Shown: in pieces, positions 2,757 through 62,994 of the stretch
Layout: every line of letters begins with the position of its first letter
Position numbering within the stretch: position 1 is the stretch's first letter
Assembly: GCF_005435165.1 (NCBI RefSeq)
Contig: NZ_SGUC01000016.1
Coordinates: forward strand, 1 to 64,000
Direction of reading: 5' to 3'
DNA: 64,000 nt
Source: Halorubrum sp. GN11_10-6_MGM
GTDB lineage: Archaea; Halobacteriota; Halobacteria; Halobacteriales; Haloferacaceae
Position numbers and translations under genes: made by a program
The notes under the pieces: model-generated
What the model was told of the DNA's origin: nothing
Databases searched by the model: none
Seen by the model: only the letters and a program-made list of their open reading frames with translations

Positions 2757-3092
2757 AGAACACCTCCAAAACCCCAGCCGCTCGGTGATGCGCAGTTACT
2801 GTTGCGACTAACACCTCCAAAGCCCCAGCCGCGAGGACTCGCACGACTCGCTGCGCTCCTCGGTCGCTCACTCCGTTCGCTCCCTGCGGTGCTTACGTCG
2901 TCGGGCTTCGTCCTCGCGACTGCCCCTTTGAGTCCCACCCCGCACCGCACAGCGACCGCACCTCACGCCTCCCCAGCCTCGTCGCTCACGCCCTGCGGGC
3001 GTTCGCGACTCCCTCGCGCGTGCTCCTCGCGGCCGCCTTCGGCGGCACGCTCGGTGGCACGCGCCACCGCACCGCCGTCGTTCATTTATAAA
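2757..3092 (-). repeat. Dispersed intergenic repeat element, copy A (minus orientation)
   Basis: Fills the gap between the Cmi4-like and Cas4-like genes. Read on the minus strand it starts with the palindrome TTTATAAA (3085-3092), then a hairpin with a GAA loop (3032-3046), a helix with tandem G.A mismatches (2981-3009), the family block GAGGCTGGGGAGGCGTGAGG (2961-2980), a long inverted repeat (arms 2910-2918 and 2830-2838) and two tail units with cores at 2817-2828 and 2766-2777, 51 bp apart. It has no coding potential that I trust. The other copies are B, C, D and E. Confidence 0.85.
3085..3092 (+). promoter_or_regulatory. TATA box for the Cas4-like gene, shared with the head of repeat A
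   Basis: TTTATAAA is self-complementary and lies about 26 nt upstream of the GTG at 3115, the spacing of a leaderless haloarchaeal promoter. The same eight bases are the head of repeat A on the opposite strand, so one box may drive transcription in both directions. Confidence 0.6.
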
Positions 3093-4480: not shown

Positions 4481-4561
4481 ATGACGCGAGACGAACGCGT
4501 TCGTTCGGAGGATAGAGGAAGTCGCCTCACGGCGGCTGGCCGCGAAATTCTCCGGCGATAA
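4481..4561 (+). CDS. Possible 26-aa leader ORF upstream of cimA
   Basis: A 26-codon ORF beginning MTRDERVRSEDRG and ending GREILRR, placed at leaderless distance from a good TATA box and 70 nt before the TTG start of cimA. It is rich in Arg and has one Ile and two Leu codons near its end. The ORF is too short to judge by coding statistics. It might be a translated leader for the branched-chain amino acid gene, or the true cimA start may lie elsewhere with this ORF accidental. Confidence 0.35.
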   Translation: MTRDERVRSEDRGSRLTAAGREILRR

Positions 4562-4631: not shown

Positions 4632-6206
4632 TTGACCCGAACCACACTCACCGACCGCGACGAGGTACAGCTGTTAGACACGACGCTGCGCGACGGCGAA
4701 CAGATGCCGGGAGTCTCCCTGACCCCCGGCGAGAAGGTCGACGTCGCCCGCGAGCTCGACGCCGCCGGCGTCCACCTGATCGAGGCCGGCTCGGCGTGCA
4801 CCTCGGAAGGCGAGCGGGAGGCGATCCGGAGGGTCGCCGAGGAGGGGTTGGACGCGACGGTGACGAGCTTCGCCCGCGGCGTGAAACGCGACGTCGACCA
4901 CGCGCTCGACTGCGGCGTCGACGGGGTGAACCTCGTCGTCCCCGCCTCGGACAAACACGTCGAGACGAAGGTGGGGTCGACCCGCGACGAGGTCGTCGAG
5001 ACGACGGTCGAGCTCGTCGAGTACGCGAAGGACCACGGGCTGTGGGTGGAGGTGCTGGGCGAGGACGGCTCGCGCGCCGACCTCGACTACCTCGAACGGC
5101 TGCTCGGCGCCGGCCTCGACGCCGGCGCGGACCGGATCTGCTACTGCGACACAGTCGGGGCGGCCGACCCCGAGCGCACCGCGGACGTGGTCTCGCGGCT
5201 GGCGGAGCTCGGGCCGACGAGCCTCCACACCCACGACGACCTCGGGTTCGGGCTGGCGAACGTTCACGCGGGCCTGAAGGCGGGCGCCGACACCGTCCAC
5301 GGCACCGTCCTCGGCGTCGGCGAGCGCGCGGGCAACGTCGCGCTCGAAGAGGTCGCGGTCGCGCTCGGCGAATCGTACGGCGTCGACACCGTCGAACTCG
5401 CGCGGCTCTACCGGCTCTGTCGAACCGTCTCGGAGGCGACCGGCGTCGCGCTCCCGCCGAACAAGGCCGTCTGCGGCGCCAACGCCTTCGCCCACGAGTC
5501 CGGCATCCACACCGACGGCACGCTGAAGGACGGGACGATGTACGAGCCGTACCCGCCGGAGACGGTCGGCCGCGAGCGACGGCTCGTCCTCGGCAAGCAC
5601 GCTGGGCGCGCCGGCGTGAAGGCCGCACTCGCCGAACACGACGTCGCGGTCGACGACGACGAGCTCCGCGAGGTCGTCGCCCGCGTGAAGGAGCTGGGCG
5701 AGCGCGGCAAGCGCGTCACCGACGCCGACCTGCTCGCGATCGCCGACGACGTGCGGGGCCGCGAGCGCGAGCGCCACGTCGAACTCGTCGACCTCTCGGC
5801 GACCTCCGGCGGCAACCTCCCGACCGCCTCGGTCCGGCTCCGCGTCGGCGACGACGAGCGCGTCGCCTCCGGCACGGGCGCCGGGCCGGTCGACGCCGGG
5901 CTGGAGGCGGTGCGCGCGGCGCTCGCGGGCGACGAGGGCGAGTCCGGAGGGGAGGGGACGGCCGACGGCGACGGCGTCGCCTTCGACCTCGACTCCTACC
6001 ACGTCGACGCGATCACGGGCGGAACCGACGCGGTCGTCACCGTCGAGGTCGACCTCTCGCGGGGCGACCGCTCCGTGAGCGTCTCGGCGTCGGACGCGGA
6101 CATCACCCGGGCGAGCGTCGTCGGGATGGTCGACGGGCTCGACCGCCTGCTGGCGGCGGAGGCGGACGCCGCGGGGGCCGAGCCGGGCGCGGTCGCCGAC
6201 GACTGA
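4632..6206 (+). CDS. cimA: (R)-citramalate synthase / 2-isopropylmalate synthase family
   Basis: 524-aa member of the LeuA/CimA/NifV family. The opening motif LLDTTLRDGEQMPGVSL, the metal-binding HTHDDLGFG and the HESGIHTDG motif are intact. A C-terminal LeuA dimer/regulatory domain follows (about 385-515, with SYHVDAITGGTDAVVTVEV). The sequence closely matches the haloarchaeal protein I know as (R)-citramalate synthase, which condenses pyruvate and acetyl-CoA in the threonine-independent isoleucine route. The start is TTG at 4632 because no ATG occurs in frame after the TGA at 4482. A 2-isopropylmalate synthase role is the main alternative. Threonine deaminase, the other isoleucine entry, is encoded at 11.5 kb. 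Confidence 0.8.
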   Translation: MTRTTLTDRDEVQLLDTTLRDGEQMPGVSLTPGEKVDVARELDAAGVHLIEAGSACTSEGEREAIRRVAEEGLDATVTSFARGVKRDVDHALDCGVDGVNLVVPASDKHVETKVGSTRDEVVETTVELVEYAKDHGLWVEVLGEDGSRADLDYLERLLGAGLDAGADRICYCDTVGAADPERTADVVSRLAELGPTSLHTHDDLGFGLANVHAGLKAGADTVHGTVLGVGERAGNVALEEVAVALGESYGVDTVELARLYRLCRTVSEATGVALPPNKAVCGANAFAHESGIHTDGTLKDGTMYEPYPPETVGRERRLVLGKHAGRAGVKAALAEHDVAVDDDELREVVARVKELGERGKRVTDADLLAIADDVRGRERERHVELVDLSATSGGNLPTASVRLRVGDDERVASGTGAGPVDAGLEAVRAALAGDEGESGGEGTADGDGVAFDLDSYHVDAITGGTDAVVTVEVDLSRGDRSVSVSASDADITRASVVGMVDGLDRLLAAEADAAGAEPGAVADD

Positions 6207-12683: not shown

Positions 12684-13003
12684 TACTTATAAATAGGACC
12701 GCAGTGGCGCGCGCCTCCGAGTAGCCGCCGAAGGCGGCCGCGAGGAGCACGCGCGCGGTCGCCGGCGCTATGCGCCGGCTGCCAGAGTGACCTTCGATCC
12801 CCCGCTGGAGTCGCGAGCGGTTGGGCGACCGAAGGGAGCCCAGAGGGAGCGACGAGGCTGGGGAGGCGTGAGGTGCTGTGCGGTCGCGGTCGAGCGGGAC
12901 TCGAAGCGGCAGTCGCGGGGCGGTGTCCGTGTCGATCGGTCGCTTATAATCGATCACCACATCGTCCAGCCGAGCGACTGGGGCTTCGGCGGTGTGAGCC
13001 GCT
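12684..13003 (+). repeat. Dispersed intergenic repeat element, copy B
   Basis: Lies between ilvA and a convergent gene. The head CTTATAAAT is at 12685-12693. The hairpin with GAA loop is at 12724-12738, and an extra hairpin with 8-bp arms and TAT loop occurs around 12761-12779. The tandem-G.A helix is at 12810-12853 with an 11-nt loop nearly identical to copy E. The family block is at 12854-12873. Two tail units are spaced 69 bp apart (CGGTGT at 12921 and 12990); the first has lost its CTGGGGCTTC core but keeps CTTATAA at 12943-12949. Confidence 0.85.
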
Positions 13004-27882: not shown

Positions 27883-28524
27883 ATGGAGCCGATCACCGTC
27901 ACCGCGGACGCGGAGGAGTTCACCTGCAACGCGTACCTCGTCGTCGGGGACGCGACGACGCTCGTCGACGCCGGAACGATGCCCGGCGTGGACGAGGTGG
28001 TCGCCGACGCGCTCGACGACGCGGGCGCCGACGGCCTCGACCGCGTCGTGATCACGCACCAGCACCACGACCACGTGGGCGAGCTCGACGCCGTCGTCGA
28101 CCGGTTCGACCCGCGCGTGTTCGCGTACGCGGACCACCCGCGCCGCGACGTGGCGCTCGAAGACGGCGACGAGGTGCTGGTCGGCGACGAGCCCTGCGAG
28201 GTCGTCTACACGCCCGGCCACGCCGACGACCACGTCTCGCTCGTCGGCGCAGAGCGGCTCTACTCCGGCGACGTCGTCGTCTACAACGACGGCGCCTTCG
28301 ACGACGGGTCGTTCGGCCGGACGGACATGGCCGGCCAGTCGCGCGAGCGCCTGATCGAGAGCCTCCACGACATCCTCGACCGCCTGCCCGACACCGCCGA
28401 GGCGATGTACCCCGGCCACGGCGACGTCTACCGTGCCGCAGACGGCCCGGACACCGTCCGCGAGGTGATCGAGCGCGCGACCGAGCGCGCCGAGCGCCGC
28501 GAGCCGAAGTACCCCGAGGAGTGA
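27883..28524 (+). CDS. MBL-fold metallo-hydrolase
   Basis: 213-aa protein with the metallo-beta-lactamase dinuclear zinc site: THQHHDHVGEL, then YTPGHADDHVS, the bridging Asp in YSGDVVVY and the late His in YPGHGDVY. It belongs to the glyoxalase II-like branch. Thioester or glutathione-like substrates are typical, but the actual substrate is unknown. ATG at 27883 is preceded by an ACCCTTTTG stretch. Repeat C follows its stop. Confidence 0.83.
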   Translation: MEPITVTADAEEFTCNAYLVVGDATTLVDAGTMPGVDEVVADALDDAGADGLDRVVITHQHHDHVGELDAVVDRFDPRVFAYADHPRRDVALEDGDEVLVGDEPCEVVYTPGHADDHVSLVGAERLYSGDVVVYNDGAFDDGSFGRTDMAGQSRERLIESLHDILDRLPDTAEAMYPGHGDVYRAADGPDTVREVIERATERAERREPKYPEE

Positions 28525-28536
28525 CCGGAAACCGAG

Positions 28537-28700
28537 TTTAAAACGAACGCCGACGCCGACCGCCCACGTCGGCGCGTGCCGGCGAGCGGTCCCTCGGACC
28601 GCGAGCCGCCCGCGTGAGGGAGGCGGCGGTCCGGCGCGGCCCCGCCCGCGCCGGGCCGCCCGCCGAGGCTGGGGAGGCGCGAGGCACACGCGCGGCTGGC
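28537..28700 (+). repeat. Dispersed intergenic repeat element, copy C (short form)
   Basis: Sits between the convergent MBL and L40e genes. It has a head with GTTTAAAAC, the shared segment GTCGGCGCGTGCCGGCGAG, a 7-bp hairpin with CTC loop (28586-28602), a long GC-only hairpin (about 28622-28662) where the other copies have the G.A helix, and the family block at 28665-28684. The tail repeats are absent, so this copy is truncated or a variant. Confidence 0.75.
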
Positions 28701-28720
28701 CGTCGAAGAGTGAGGTCCGT

Positions 28721-37446: not shown

Positions 37447-38856
37447 ATGGACGAGCCGTACGCTCCCGCGCGCGATGCGCTCGGCGGTGACGGGCTGGCC
37501 GGCGACGCCGCCGACACCGACCCCGCCGTCCTCGCCGCGCGCCTCGACGACGCCGACCCCCTCTCCGGGTTCGCGGACCGGTATCGGATCCCCGACGACC
37601 TGCTGTACATGGACGGCAACTCGCTCGGTCCCGCAAGCGACGCTGCCCTCGCGAACCTCGACCGCGTCGTCGACGAGTGGCGCGAGTTGCTGATATCGGG
37701 CTGGACCGACGCCGACCCGCCGTGGTTCGAGGTCGGCGAGCGGCTCGGCGACGCGCTCGCGCCGCTCGTCGGCGCCGACCCGAGCGAGGTCGTCGTCGGC
37801 AACTCGATCACGGTGAACATCCACACCCTGATCGGCACGTTCCTCGACGAGCTGTTGGCCGGGAACGGCCCGGAACGCGAGGGGTTCGAACGCGCCGACG
37901 GGACGTGGGCACCGAACGGGGACCCCGACATCGACCCCGCGGTCCTCGTCAACGAGTTGGACTTCCCCTCCGACCACTACGCGATCCGGGCGCAGCTCCG
38001 GGGGCGCGGGATCGACCCCGACGAGAAGCTCCGGGTCGTGCCGAGCCGCGACGGGCGGACGATCGACCCCCGCGACGTCGAGGCCGCCCTCGAAGCGCAC
38101 GACGACGTCGGGATCGTCTGGATGCCGACCGCGCTGTACCGGTCGGGCCAGCTGTTCGACGTGGAGCGGATCGCGGAGGCGGCCCACGAGGCGGGCGCGT
38201 ACGCCGGCTTCGACGCCGCTCACTCCGCGGGCGCCGTCCCGCACGAGTTCGACGCGGCTGGCGTCGACTTCGCGGTGTGGTGTACGTACAAGTACCTCAA
38301 CGCCGGACCCGGCTCGATCGGCGCGCTGTTCGTCGCCGAGCGGCACCACGGGCTCACGCCCGCGCTGGCGGGGTGGTGGGGCCACGAGAAAGAGACGCAG
38401 TTCGAGATGAACATGACGTTCACCGCGGCCGACTCCGCGGGCGCGTGGCAGATCGGGACCCCGCCGCTGCTCGCGGCCGCGCCGCTCGAAGGCTCGGTCG
38501 AACTCCTGCGCGAGGCCGGGATCGAGCGCTTACGGGAGAAGTCGCTCGCGCTCACCGATTTCCTGATCGCGCTCGTCGACGACCGACTGCCCGAGGTCGA
38601 CATCGGCACCCCCAGAGACCACGCGGCCCGCGGGGGGCACGTCGCGCTCGAACACTCCGACGCCGAGCGACTGAGCGAGGCCCTGAAAGACCGCGGCGTG
38701 GTGGTCGACTTCCGCCCGCCGAACGTGGTCCGCGTCTGTCCCGCGGCCCCGTACACCTCGTTCGCCGACGTGCTCGGAGTCGTCGACGAGATCGAGGCGA
38801 TCCTCGAATCCGGCGCGCACGAGGCGTACGCGACGAGCGACGGCGGCGTGACGTAG
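37447..38856 (+). CDS. kynU: Kynureninase
   Basis: 469-aa PLP enzyme of the aspartate aminotransferase fold that cleaves kynurenine to anthranilate and alanine. Typical segments are the substrate loop YMDGNSLGPAS, the GFDAAHSAGAVPHEF motif with the PLP-contacting Asp, and the lysine-bearing WCTYKYLNAGPGSIGALFV. The length is slightly above the usual 415-430 aa; extra residues are in an acidic loop near 140-150. No kynurenine formamidase or tryptophan dioxygenase is adjacent. Repeat D follows 8 nt after the stop. Confidence 0.87.
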   Translation: MDEPYAPARDALGGDGLAGDAADTDPAVLAARLDDADPLSGFADRYRIPDDLLYMDGNSLGPASDAALANLDRVVDEWRELLISGWTDADPPWFEVGERLGDALAPLVGADPSEVVVGNSITVNIHTLIGTFLDELLAGNGPEREGFERADGTWAPNGDPDIDPAVLVNELDFPSDHYAIRAQLRGRGIDPDEKLRVVPSRDGRTIDPRDVEAALEAHDDVGIVWMPTALYRSGQLFDVERIAEAAHEAGAYAGFDAAHSAGAVPHEFDAAGVDFAVWCTYKYLNAGPGSIGALFVAERHHGLTPALAGWWGHEKETQFEMNMTFTAADSAGAWQIGTPPLLAAAPLEGSVELLREAGIERLREKSLALTDFLIALVDDRLPEVDIGTPRDHAARGGHVALEHSDAERLSEALKDRGVVVDFRPPNVVRVCPAAPYTSFADVLGVVDEIEAILESGAHEAYATSDGGVT

Positions 38857-38864
38857 TCGGACAT

Positions 38865-39120
38865 TTATAAACACACCGCGGTGGCGCGTGCCTCCGAGGC
38901 CGCATCGCGGCCGAGGAGCGCGCGCGAGGGACGCCGCGAGCGCGGAGCGCGAGCGGCGAGGCTGGGGAGGCGCGAGGTGCGGTGCTGTGCGGTGCGGGGC
39001 GGGCCTCGCGGCTGGGGCTTCAGCGGTCGTGTTGGAGCCGGTGACCGCGTAGTGCCGAGCGGCTGGGGCTTCGGCGGTCGTGCTCTCGACACCGACCGCG
39101 TCGTAGCGAACGACTGGATT
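38865..39120 (+). repeat. Dispersed intergenic repeat element, copy D
   Basis: Lies between kynU and the helicase gene. The head TTTATAAA is at 38867-38874 and the hairpin with ATC loop at 38898-38912. The tandem-G.A helix (38932-38958) is perfectly symmetric: CGCCGC-GA-GCGC-gga-GCGC-GA-GCGGCG. The family block is at 38958-38977. Three tail units start at 39012, 39063 and 39114 (51-bp spacing), the last one degenerate. From 39121 to 39252 I see only a TATA-like box near 39213-39219, likely for the helicase. Confidence 0.87.
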
Positions 39121-60992: not shown

Positions 60993-61475
60993 CATTTATA
61001 TACCGGCGGTCGGCGCGTGCCGGCGAGCGGCGCTTCGCGCCGCGAGTCGCACGCGCGAGGGACGTCGTGAGTGACGGGCGACCGGAGGGAGCCCGGAGCG
61101 AACGGCGAGGCTGGGGAGGCGTGAGGCTGCGGTGCGGGGCGGGACTCGAAGGGGCAGTCGCGAGGCGGGCGCAGGCGACGTAAGCACCGCAGGAACGAGC
61201 GGAGCGAGTGACGAGGAGCGCAGCGAGCGTGCGCCCGCCTCGCGACTGGGGCTTCGGTGGCGTTCGTGTCGATCAGCAGTTTACAAGCAGAACCGATCTC
61301 GTACAGCCGAGCGGCTGGGGCTTCGGCAGTGTTCGTGTGGCTCAGTGATTCATAAGCGAAGAGAACATCGTATAGCCGAGCGGCTGGGGCTTCGGCGGTG
61401 TTCGTGACGATCAGCGATTTATAAGAAACAGCTACGTACTGCCGAGCAGGTCGGGCTTCGGTGGTCTCCGACTCG
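60993..61475 (+). repeat. Dispersed intergenic repeat element, copy E (longest copy)
   Basis: Lies between convergent genes. The head CATTTATATA is near 60993; another TTATAAATA lies at about 60963. It has a 7-bp hairpin with TTC loop (61027-61043), the helix with two tandem G.A motifs (61063-61107; 11-nt loop 61080-61090) and the family block (61107-61126). A 15-bp inverted repeat (61159-61173 with 61230-61244) encloses 56 nt. Four tail units follow. The remaining bases to 61537 contain nothing recognisable. Confidence 0.87.
61246..61461 (+). repeat. Tandem 69-bp repeats in the tail of element E
   Basis: The core CTGGGGCTTCGG starts at 61246, 61315, 61384 and (altered) 61450, so the spacing is 69, 69 and 66 bp. 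Each of the first three units has a TATA-like sequence about 34 nt after the core: TTTACAAG, TTCATAAG and TTTATAAG. Each unit can form a small stem of GCCGA with TCGGC around the GGCTGGGG loop. The 69-bp unit equals the 51-bp unit of copies A and D plus 18 nt that include this box. Confidence 0.85.
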
Positions 61476-62773: not shown

Positions 62774-62994
62774 TACCGGCCACCCCCGGATCGAGGGGTC
62801 CGGACGACGGGGAACGGCGGGGAGCCGGAGCGAGTCGAAGCGCCGGGGCGGGTCGAGACGACTGCGGAGCGGGACACGACGGCAGAGCGGGACACGACGG
62901 CAGAGCGGGACACGACGGCAGAGCGGGACACGACGGCAGAGCGGGACACGACGGCAGAGCGAGTCGGGGCGCGTCCGGGGAACCGACCGCTCAT
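62773..62994 (-). CDS. Repeat-bearing 73-aa ORF between TrkA-C and antiporter genes
   Basis: The ORF starts MSGRFPGRAPTR, continues with six copies of RSAVVS and ends TPRSGGGR. Its ATG overlaps the TGA of the TrkA-C gene (ATGA), and its TAG overlaps the antiporter GTG by one base, so all three reading frames abut exactly. The peptide is very basic and Ser/Val-rich. No homologue is known to me. It may be a real small protein, or merely a bridge that lets ribosomes travel between the two genes. Confidence 0.45.
   Translation of the reverse strand: MSGRFPGRAPTRSAVVSRSAVVSRSAVVSRSAVVSRSAVVSRSAVVSTRPGASTRSGSPPFPVVRTPRSGGGR
62869..62958. repeat. 18-bp tandem repeat, five exact copies
   Basis: The unit GCGGGACACGACGGCAGA starts at 62869, 62887, 62905, 62923 and 62941, with partial units at both ends. 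Because 18 is a multiple of three, copy-number change keeps the minus-strand ORF open. It is unrelated in sequence to elements A-E. Confidence 0.95.

Follow-up and report, generated by a model that had tools for sequence, protein, structure and literature searches.

Two bacterial repeat families come closest to the element described here. BOX is a composite structure, enriched between convergent genes, that transposes slowly (PMC3049150), while bcr1 of the Bacillus cereus group carries TTTAT flanks and reaches up to 130 copies (PMC6542083). A repeat of this general kind occurs in the haloarchaeon Halorubrum sp. GN11_10-6_MGM, where it was encountered in a 64,000-nucleotide stretch of one contig (the window). 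A preliminary description of this stretch had singled out a helix with tandem G•A mismatches at 38932–38958 and in three other places; this helix is one hairpin, P2, of a structured interspersed element of ~250 nucleotides (nts) with more than 100 copies.

Every sampled Halorubrum genome carries about 40–150 loci, and relatives are found in many haloarchaea, yet the element is missing from Rfam. With thousands of diverged copies and one fold, it constitutes a rich natural data set for RNA structure, chiefly for the GA-ladder helix discussed below, and lets one ask directly whether structured prokaryotic repeats of high copy number are parasites or working RNAs. On balance, we regard it as probably a composite structured repeat, akin in kind to BOX and bcr1, that moves slowly and whose single-strand fold, probably of RNA, is under selection.

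Architecture of the element and its copies in the window

Dozens of copies were reached through the 20-nt block that lies behind the P2 helix. Aligned, they share one order: hairpin P1, the linker GAGGGA, P2, the near-invariant block GAGGCUGGGGAGGCGUGAGG, a GC-rich linker, and the long hairpin P3. The family P1 reads GCGCGUGC-C-UCC-GA-GGCCGC...GCGGCC-GA-GGA-GCACGCGC. P3 opens with CRAAG/CUUYG and CAGUCGCG/CGCGACUG, in which GGG tracts face each other, and the GGGG tract of its 5′ arm is directly visible in the alignment. The 3′ tail can be tandemly repeated with a period of ~57 bp. Copies are often flanked by TATA-like boxes on both sides: upstream, such a motif lies at −45 to −8 in 107 of 214 copies versus 4 of 214 in a control interval, with a sharp mode at −20 (counted from GGCGCG) and a second at −51, and downstream boxes recur family-wide at +30/31 and +87/88. 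The build is modular, identical P2 modules of 27–33 nts being combined with differing P1 modules. In one copy of the same genome (L011, contig C119, at 1551, minus strand), the part of P3 enclosed by the arms is turned around and the 5′ GGGG tract reads CCCC, so the usual GGG/GGG internal loop is paired. Extra hairpins, for example CTGGCAGCCGGCGGC..GCCGCCGGCGAC, stand within variable parts of several copies (L155, L191, L272, and others) and resemble nested palindromic units.

Three covariance models were employed, of the 5′ part (R1), of P3 (R2), and of several genera together (R3). The copy that contains the helix first noticed, copy D, spans 38876–39023 on the plus strand and has a complete 5′ domain, matched by R1 at 38876–39014 with an E-value of 3.5e-23 (this and all E-values below rest on short calibrations). 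Most of its P3 is gone by deletion, leaving the 3′ arm GGCTGGGGCTTCAG as a remnant. Between copy D and the upstream TAG stop codon (38854–38856), a TATA-like box, TTTATAA, can be read at 38864–38870, with no strand assigned. P1 (38884–38925, plus strand) reads GCGCGUGC-C-UCC-GA-GGCCGC AUC GCGGCC-GA-GGA-GCGCGCGC, placing its tandem G•A at 38896–38897 opposite 38913–38914. P2 itself (38932–38958, plus strand; minimum free energy −19.4 kcal/mol) has its tandem G•A at 38938–38939 opposite 38951–38952, and is followed by the block GAGGCTGGGGAGGCGCGAGG at 38958–38977 on the same strand.

Two further copies are complete. Copy A occupies 2811–3072 on the minus strand (R1 E-value 5.3e-28, R2 4.2e-22), with P2 at 2981–3009, the block at 2961–2980, and P3 at 2811–2935; its P2, read on the minus strand, is GUCGC GA ACGCCC GCA GGGCGU GA GCGAC, and an orthologous copy is present in Halorubrum distributum. 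Copy E, at 61005–61263 on the plus strand (R1 1.3e-18, R2 6.6e-24), has P2 at 61063–61107 and P3 at 61142–61263, and behind it, at 61264–61440 on the same strand, stand tandem repeats of ~57–80 bp of the element's 3′ tail, GAGCGGCTGGGGCTTCGG..GTTCGTG..GATC..TTATAAG. Copy B (12699–12995, plus strand; R1 match 12770–12912, E-value 5e-10, R2 1e-4) is a variant with a long P2 (12810–12853) and a degenerate P3. Copy C (28564–28714, plus strand; R1 2.7e-6) is degenerate, and its site holds an intact counterpart in a nearly closed congener, G007.

The four stretches in A, B, D, and E read as had been claimed, and the phenomenon is larger than was then apparent. P2 of copy D, CGCCGC GA GCGC GGA GCGC GA GCGGCG, is indeed perfectly symmetric; in copy E, a second GA/GA follows two pairs deeper in the stem; and the inner loops of B and E, GACCGAAGGGA and GACCGGAGGGA, are one base apart. 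B is a poor example of the helix, as only its first GA/GA is in register.

Copy D follows a kynureninase-like gene and precedes an Lhr-type helicase gene, copy B lies behind a threonine-dehydratase-like gene, and copy E adjoins a Na+/H+ exchanger gene; no shared functional theme was found among these neighbors. Elsewhere in the window, a leuA-Halobacteria cis-regulatory RNA (4501–4553, plus strand; score 73.4 against a gathering cut-off of 47.9) lies directly ahead of the gene at 4632–6206, and an 18-bp tandem repeat, GACACGACGGCAGAGCGG, is present in ~6 copies at 62837–62979.

Distribution in haloarchaea

The window's genome holds at least 126 copies by R1 and at least 104 by R2, and 11 Halorubrum congeners have at least 38–147 matches each. 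Among named genomes, the 20-nt block is overwhelmingly found in Halorubrum, where the element lies between the same genes as in the window's genome. Under strict filters, R1 matched 71 of 243 genomes and 22 of the 77 genera of Halobacteriales, and six genomes from other genera gave at least 3–86 matches each. These outlying copies follow the same plan in genus-specific letters: GUGGCGCG..P1..GCGCGAGGGA, P2, CGGYUGGGGAGG, GGGAYUGAAAGGGG..GACGYAAGCACCGCAG..GAGGAGCGCAGCGAG..GGGGGCUUUC. A phylum-wide search with R3 found matches in Halobacteriales and none beyond.

In G007, which is assembled into two contigs, all 107 listed matches fall on the 3.22-Mb main contig, an unusual placement for a typical haloarchaeal mobile element. 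A few copies do reside on haloarchaeal plasmids, whose hosts include Halobaculum, Haloarcula, Halorussus, Natrinema, Halobacterium, and others. No exact match to the block occurs in 2.9 million viral contigs, and phages gave no hit. A virus or plasmid origin was rejected on these counts. Strict and permissive scans of Rfam 15 returned no match, and hence no family at its gathering cut-off, over any searched copy, their matches away from the element being the leuA-Halobacteria RNA and a tRNA only. In a targeted search of open-licence papers on haloarchaeal repeats and noncoding RNAs, the element was undescribed; an earlier description elsewhere is possible.

Covariation and the GA-ladder

That a single-strand fold is kept while its letters change, with base-pair covariation, is strongly supported. 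Across 31 copies of the window's genome, 94.1% of the cells of P1 and P2 are paired and 14 of 23 pairs are changed on both sides; for P3, the figures are 96.6% and 23 of 38. Combined, 37 of 61 tested pairs are doubly changed, 500 shuffles gave no equal, and controls in which the arms were slid reach at most 50% pairing. The CRAAG:CUUYG helix pairs in all 26 full copies, with A-U in 11 and G-C in 15. Since G•U cells outnumber A•C cells by 41 to 12, the plus strand is the folded strand. The fold is also maintained in place. Between species, copies that share a locus are only 65–77% identical, about as diverged as paralogs, and yet the B-locus set (10 genomes) is 96.1% paired with 14 of 23 pairs doubly changed, and the D-locus set (6 genomes) 98.4% paired with 13 of 23, both alignments having been fitted to the model such that these pair counts lean towards its structure.

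The compensatory changes in the preliminary description are thus real in that the fold persists as the letters differ, and partly of another nature than supposed: part of the covariation comes from copies trading entire hairpin modules, as with the one 33-nt P2 module seen with seven different P1s, besides base-by-base compensation. Hairpin swapping preserves pairing, so the covariation speaks for persistence of the fold and not for the route by which any single change came about.

The tandem G•A motif extends well beyond the helix in which it was noticed. It is present as GA/GA in 142 of 176 distinct P1 hairpins (control, 0.1%). In P2, GA..GA or GNA..GNA stands just inside the outer stem in 101 of 173 distinct hairpins (3% in a loop-shuffle control), the remaining Halorubrum P2s being fully paired (23) or of other shapes (49); GA/GA is therefore common there and not universal. 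Stronger sites are P1, the P3 tip, and the P2 of other genera. At the P3 tip, 68 of 90 hairpins have at least two in-register rungs, versus 0.9% in the control, and in other genera at least one rung is found in 28 of 33 P2s, most having two or three, at a spacing of exactly two pairs. We call this arrangement, in which G•A/A•G alternates with two Watson–Crick pairs for up to three rungs, a GA-ladder, as in U-GA-GC-GA-AC-GA-CC-GAC-GG-GA-GU-GA-GC-GA-A. The two-pair steps of the ladder covary (GC/GC, GU/AC, AC/GU, CU/AG, GG/CC, CC/GG) while GA/GA stays constant, and the second G•A of copy E is an instance of this wider pattern. In the family as a whole, further copies retain the pairing and the GA/GA mismatches far beyond chance.

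Tandem sheared G•A pairs form in DNA as well as in RNA, and the motif itself is consequently no proof of RNA. The earlier argument that selection acts on RNA is borne out as far as a single-strand fold on the plus strand is concerned, and its appeal to the motif is not.

Chromosomal placement and turnover

Gene context was taken from gene calls made by a simple codon-usage script. By these calls, 79 of 195 copies lie between convergent genes versus 42 of 436 background intervals, and 22 of 195 between divergent genes versus 136 of 436. Most copies sit closely behind a stop codon: for those whose upstream gene runs in the same direction, the median distance from its stop codon to the element is 35 nts in the window's genome; in 71 of 195 cases (36%), the upstream neighbor is on the opposite strand. 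Even spacing or a strand bias along the chromosome was rejected: in G007, the coefficient of variation of the spacing is 0.98, equal to the random 0.98, with 62 copies on the plus strand and 40 on the minus.

Occupancy varies from species to species. Among the Halorubrum genomes that hold the neighboring gene, the window's own included, the element is present at the D locus in 6 of 11, at the B locus in 12 of 15, and at the E locus in 7 of 15, in the same orientation across genomes at each locus; outside Halorubrum, 4–6 genomes have the gene, and the element is absent from their corresponding sites. Positional conservation computed from the fetched loci is biased upward, many having been chosen for holding a copy, and these three-locus counts are free of that bias. 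Clean empty sites were found, although ~6 of 14 candidate empty sites carry a variant copy on reading. At one intergenic site, shared by the window's genome (L010, contig C179) and Halorubrum aidingense (L178), the element is flipped. In G007 (L257, contig C1, near 1,007,000), the window regions at 28520 and 42181 are joined at an element copy; this junction is a rearrangement breakpoint at the repeat, one case of synteny break.

Within the window's genome, the best pair of copies is 93% identical over 163 nts and the median pair 78%. Near-identical copies are absent, and recent transposition or fresh insertions are accordingly not seen. Many contigs of this assembly begin or end within a copy (for example, C116:1-141, C179:1-126, C41:1-130, C149:1-133, C122:38895-39002, C130:28304-28398), indicating that the element breaks short-read assembly.

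Origin and function

The family shares the hallmarks of the BOX/bcr1 class: tens to more than 100 dispersed, mainly intergenic, noncoding, structured copies of 100–400 bp, a modular build with variable repeat units, and empty versus filled sites as evidence of gain. The element would have spread slowly, as a non-autonomous element, with copies homogenized and hairpin modules swapped by recombination. Its fold may have been retained because a protein recognizes it in single-stranded form, most probably as a transcribed RNA, and the GA-ladder hairpins are candidate contact sites for such a protein. Neither a mobilizing enzyme nor a clean target duplication was found, the flanks being too diverged to define the ends or a duplication; by eye, no terminal inverted repeat of the kind that defines a MITE was seen, and TTTATAA-like boxes stand on both sides. 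A purely parasitic reading is countered by the order-wide fold, by retention at single loci with intact pairing, and by the main-chromosome placement in G007. In particular, that 12 of 15 species have kept copy B, its pairing intact, goes beyond what is expected of a neutral dead copy and favors function or steady conversion.

This invites the alternative, possible though in our judgment clearly less probable, that the copies are a family of functional noncoding RNA genes, trans-acting or chromosome-organizing, each selected in place. The order-wide architecture, the pairing maintained at the B and D loci, the TATA-like box at a fixed upstream distance in half of the copies, the 107 of 107 listed G007 matches on the main chromosome, and the absence of close duplicates within the window's genome all speak for it, whereas occupancy that differs between species speaks against it, ~100 diverged copies are odd for a single RNA gene, and module exchange alone could keep the pairing. 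The TATA position counts against it as well: the usual spacing from TATA box to start is ~25–30 nts, which for the main box position at −20 would place the start within the 5′ strand of P1. With dozens to ~150 loci per genome, GA-ladders, and a possible G-quadruplex core, such an order-wide family might, tentatively, be an abundant RNP or chromosome-associated RNA; as a conjecture, a G-quadruplex could form from the four conserved G-tracts (GAGGGA, UGGGGAGG, AAGGGG, and UGGGGCUU) given the KCl levels of haloarchaea. We place slow mobility with a single-strand, probably RNA, constraint ahead of a functional RNA family.

Selection could instead act on DNA, the element being a palindromic repeat of the IS200/IS605, PATE, or REP kind, whose single-stranded DNA hairpins are recognized by a Y1 transposase. 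This is unlikely. Haloquadratum is rich in transposase-free palindromic elements derived from IS605 (PMC3119063), tandem G•A is compatible with DNA, and the inverted P3 interior of copy L011 fits such a process, but in complexity the fold goes well beyond a pair of near-terminal palindromes, and Y1_Tnp (PF01797) has no match in three congeners (G002, G004, and G005) that hold at least 77, 74, and 106 copies, an absence that counts against current dependence only. More doubtful still is a cis-acting 3′-end element, be it a terminator, an mRNA stabilizer, or an insulator between convergent genes. The median 35 nts past a same-strand stop and the strong enrichment between convergent genes suggest it; insertion tolerance predicts the same pattern, as argued for BOX (PMC3049150), and a common theme is missing among the neighboring genes. 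Furthermore, an upstream neighbor on the opposite strand puts the fold outside that gene's transcript, and the idea of a fixed 3′-UTR element was rejected on account of these copies, 36% of the total. The slowly mobile repeat with a constrained single-strand fold thus remains our preferred reading.

Relation to known motifs and repeats

Tandem G•A pairs are also the signature of the kink-turn, and binding by L7Ae had been raised on that account. A kink-turn requires a 3-nt bulge beside its tandem G•A. In the present element this bulge is missing, P1 having only a single bulged C three pairs off, and the G•A pairs are symmetric, laddered, and flanked on both sides by covarying Watson–Crick pairs; a kink-turn or L7Ae target was rejected on this geometry. 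The PATEs and other transposase-free repeats of Haloquadratum walsbyi are, like the present family, haloarchaeal, noncoding, palindrome-rich, and of many copies (PMC3119063); they are tied to the ends of IS605, and strain-specific insertions of them occur, whereas the family described here has an elaborate covarying fold. bcr1 belongs to the same 100–400 bp class and is mostly chromosomal, its TTTAT flanks recalling the TTTATAA-like boxes (PMC6542083); sequence and domain of life differ, and the boundaries of the haloarchaeal element are putative. BOX occurs in a few streptococci, while the haloarchaeal element extends across many genera and is archaeal, with three hairpins, GA-ladders, and a near-invariant G-rich block. 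No homology to either family is claimed, nor is a sequence relation to BOX expected, and the likeness to BOX of Streptococcus pneumoniae is one of kind: both are built from modules of which one can be repeated, are predicted to fold extensively as RNA, occur in many copies, are enriched between convergent genes, and show little trace of recent transposition (PMC3049150).
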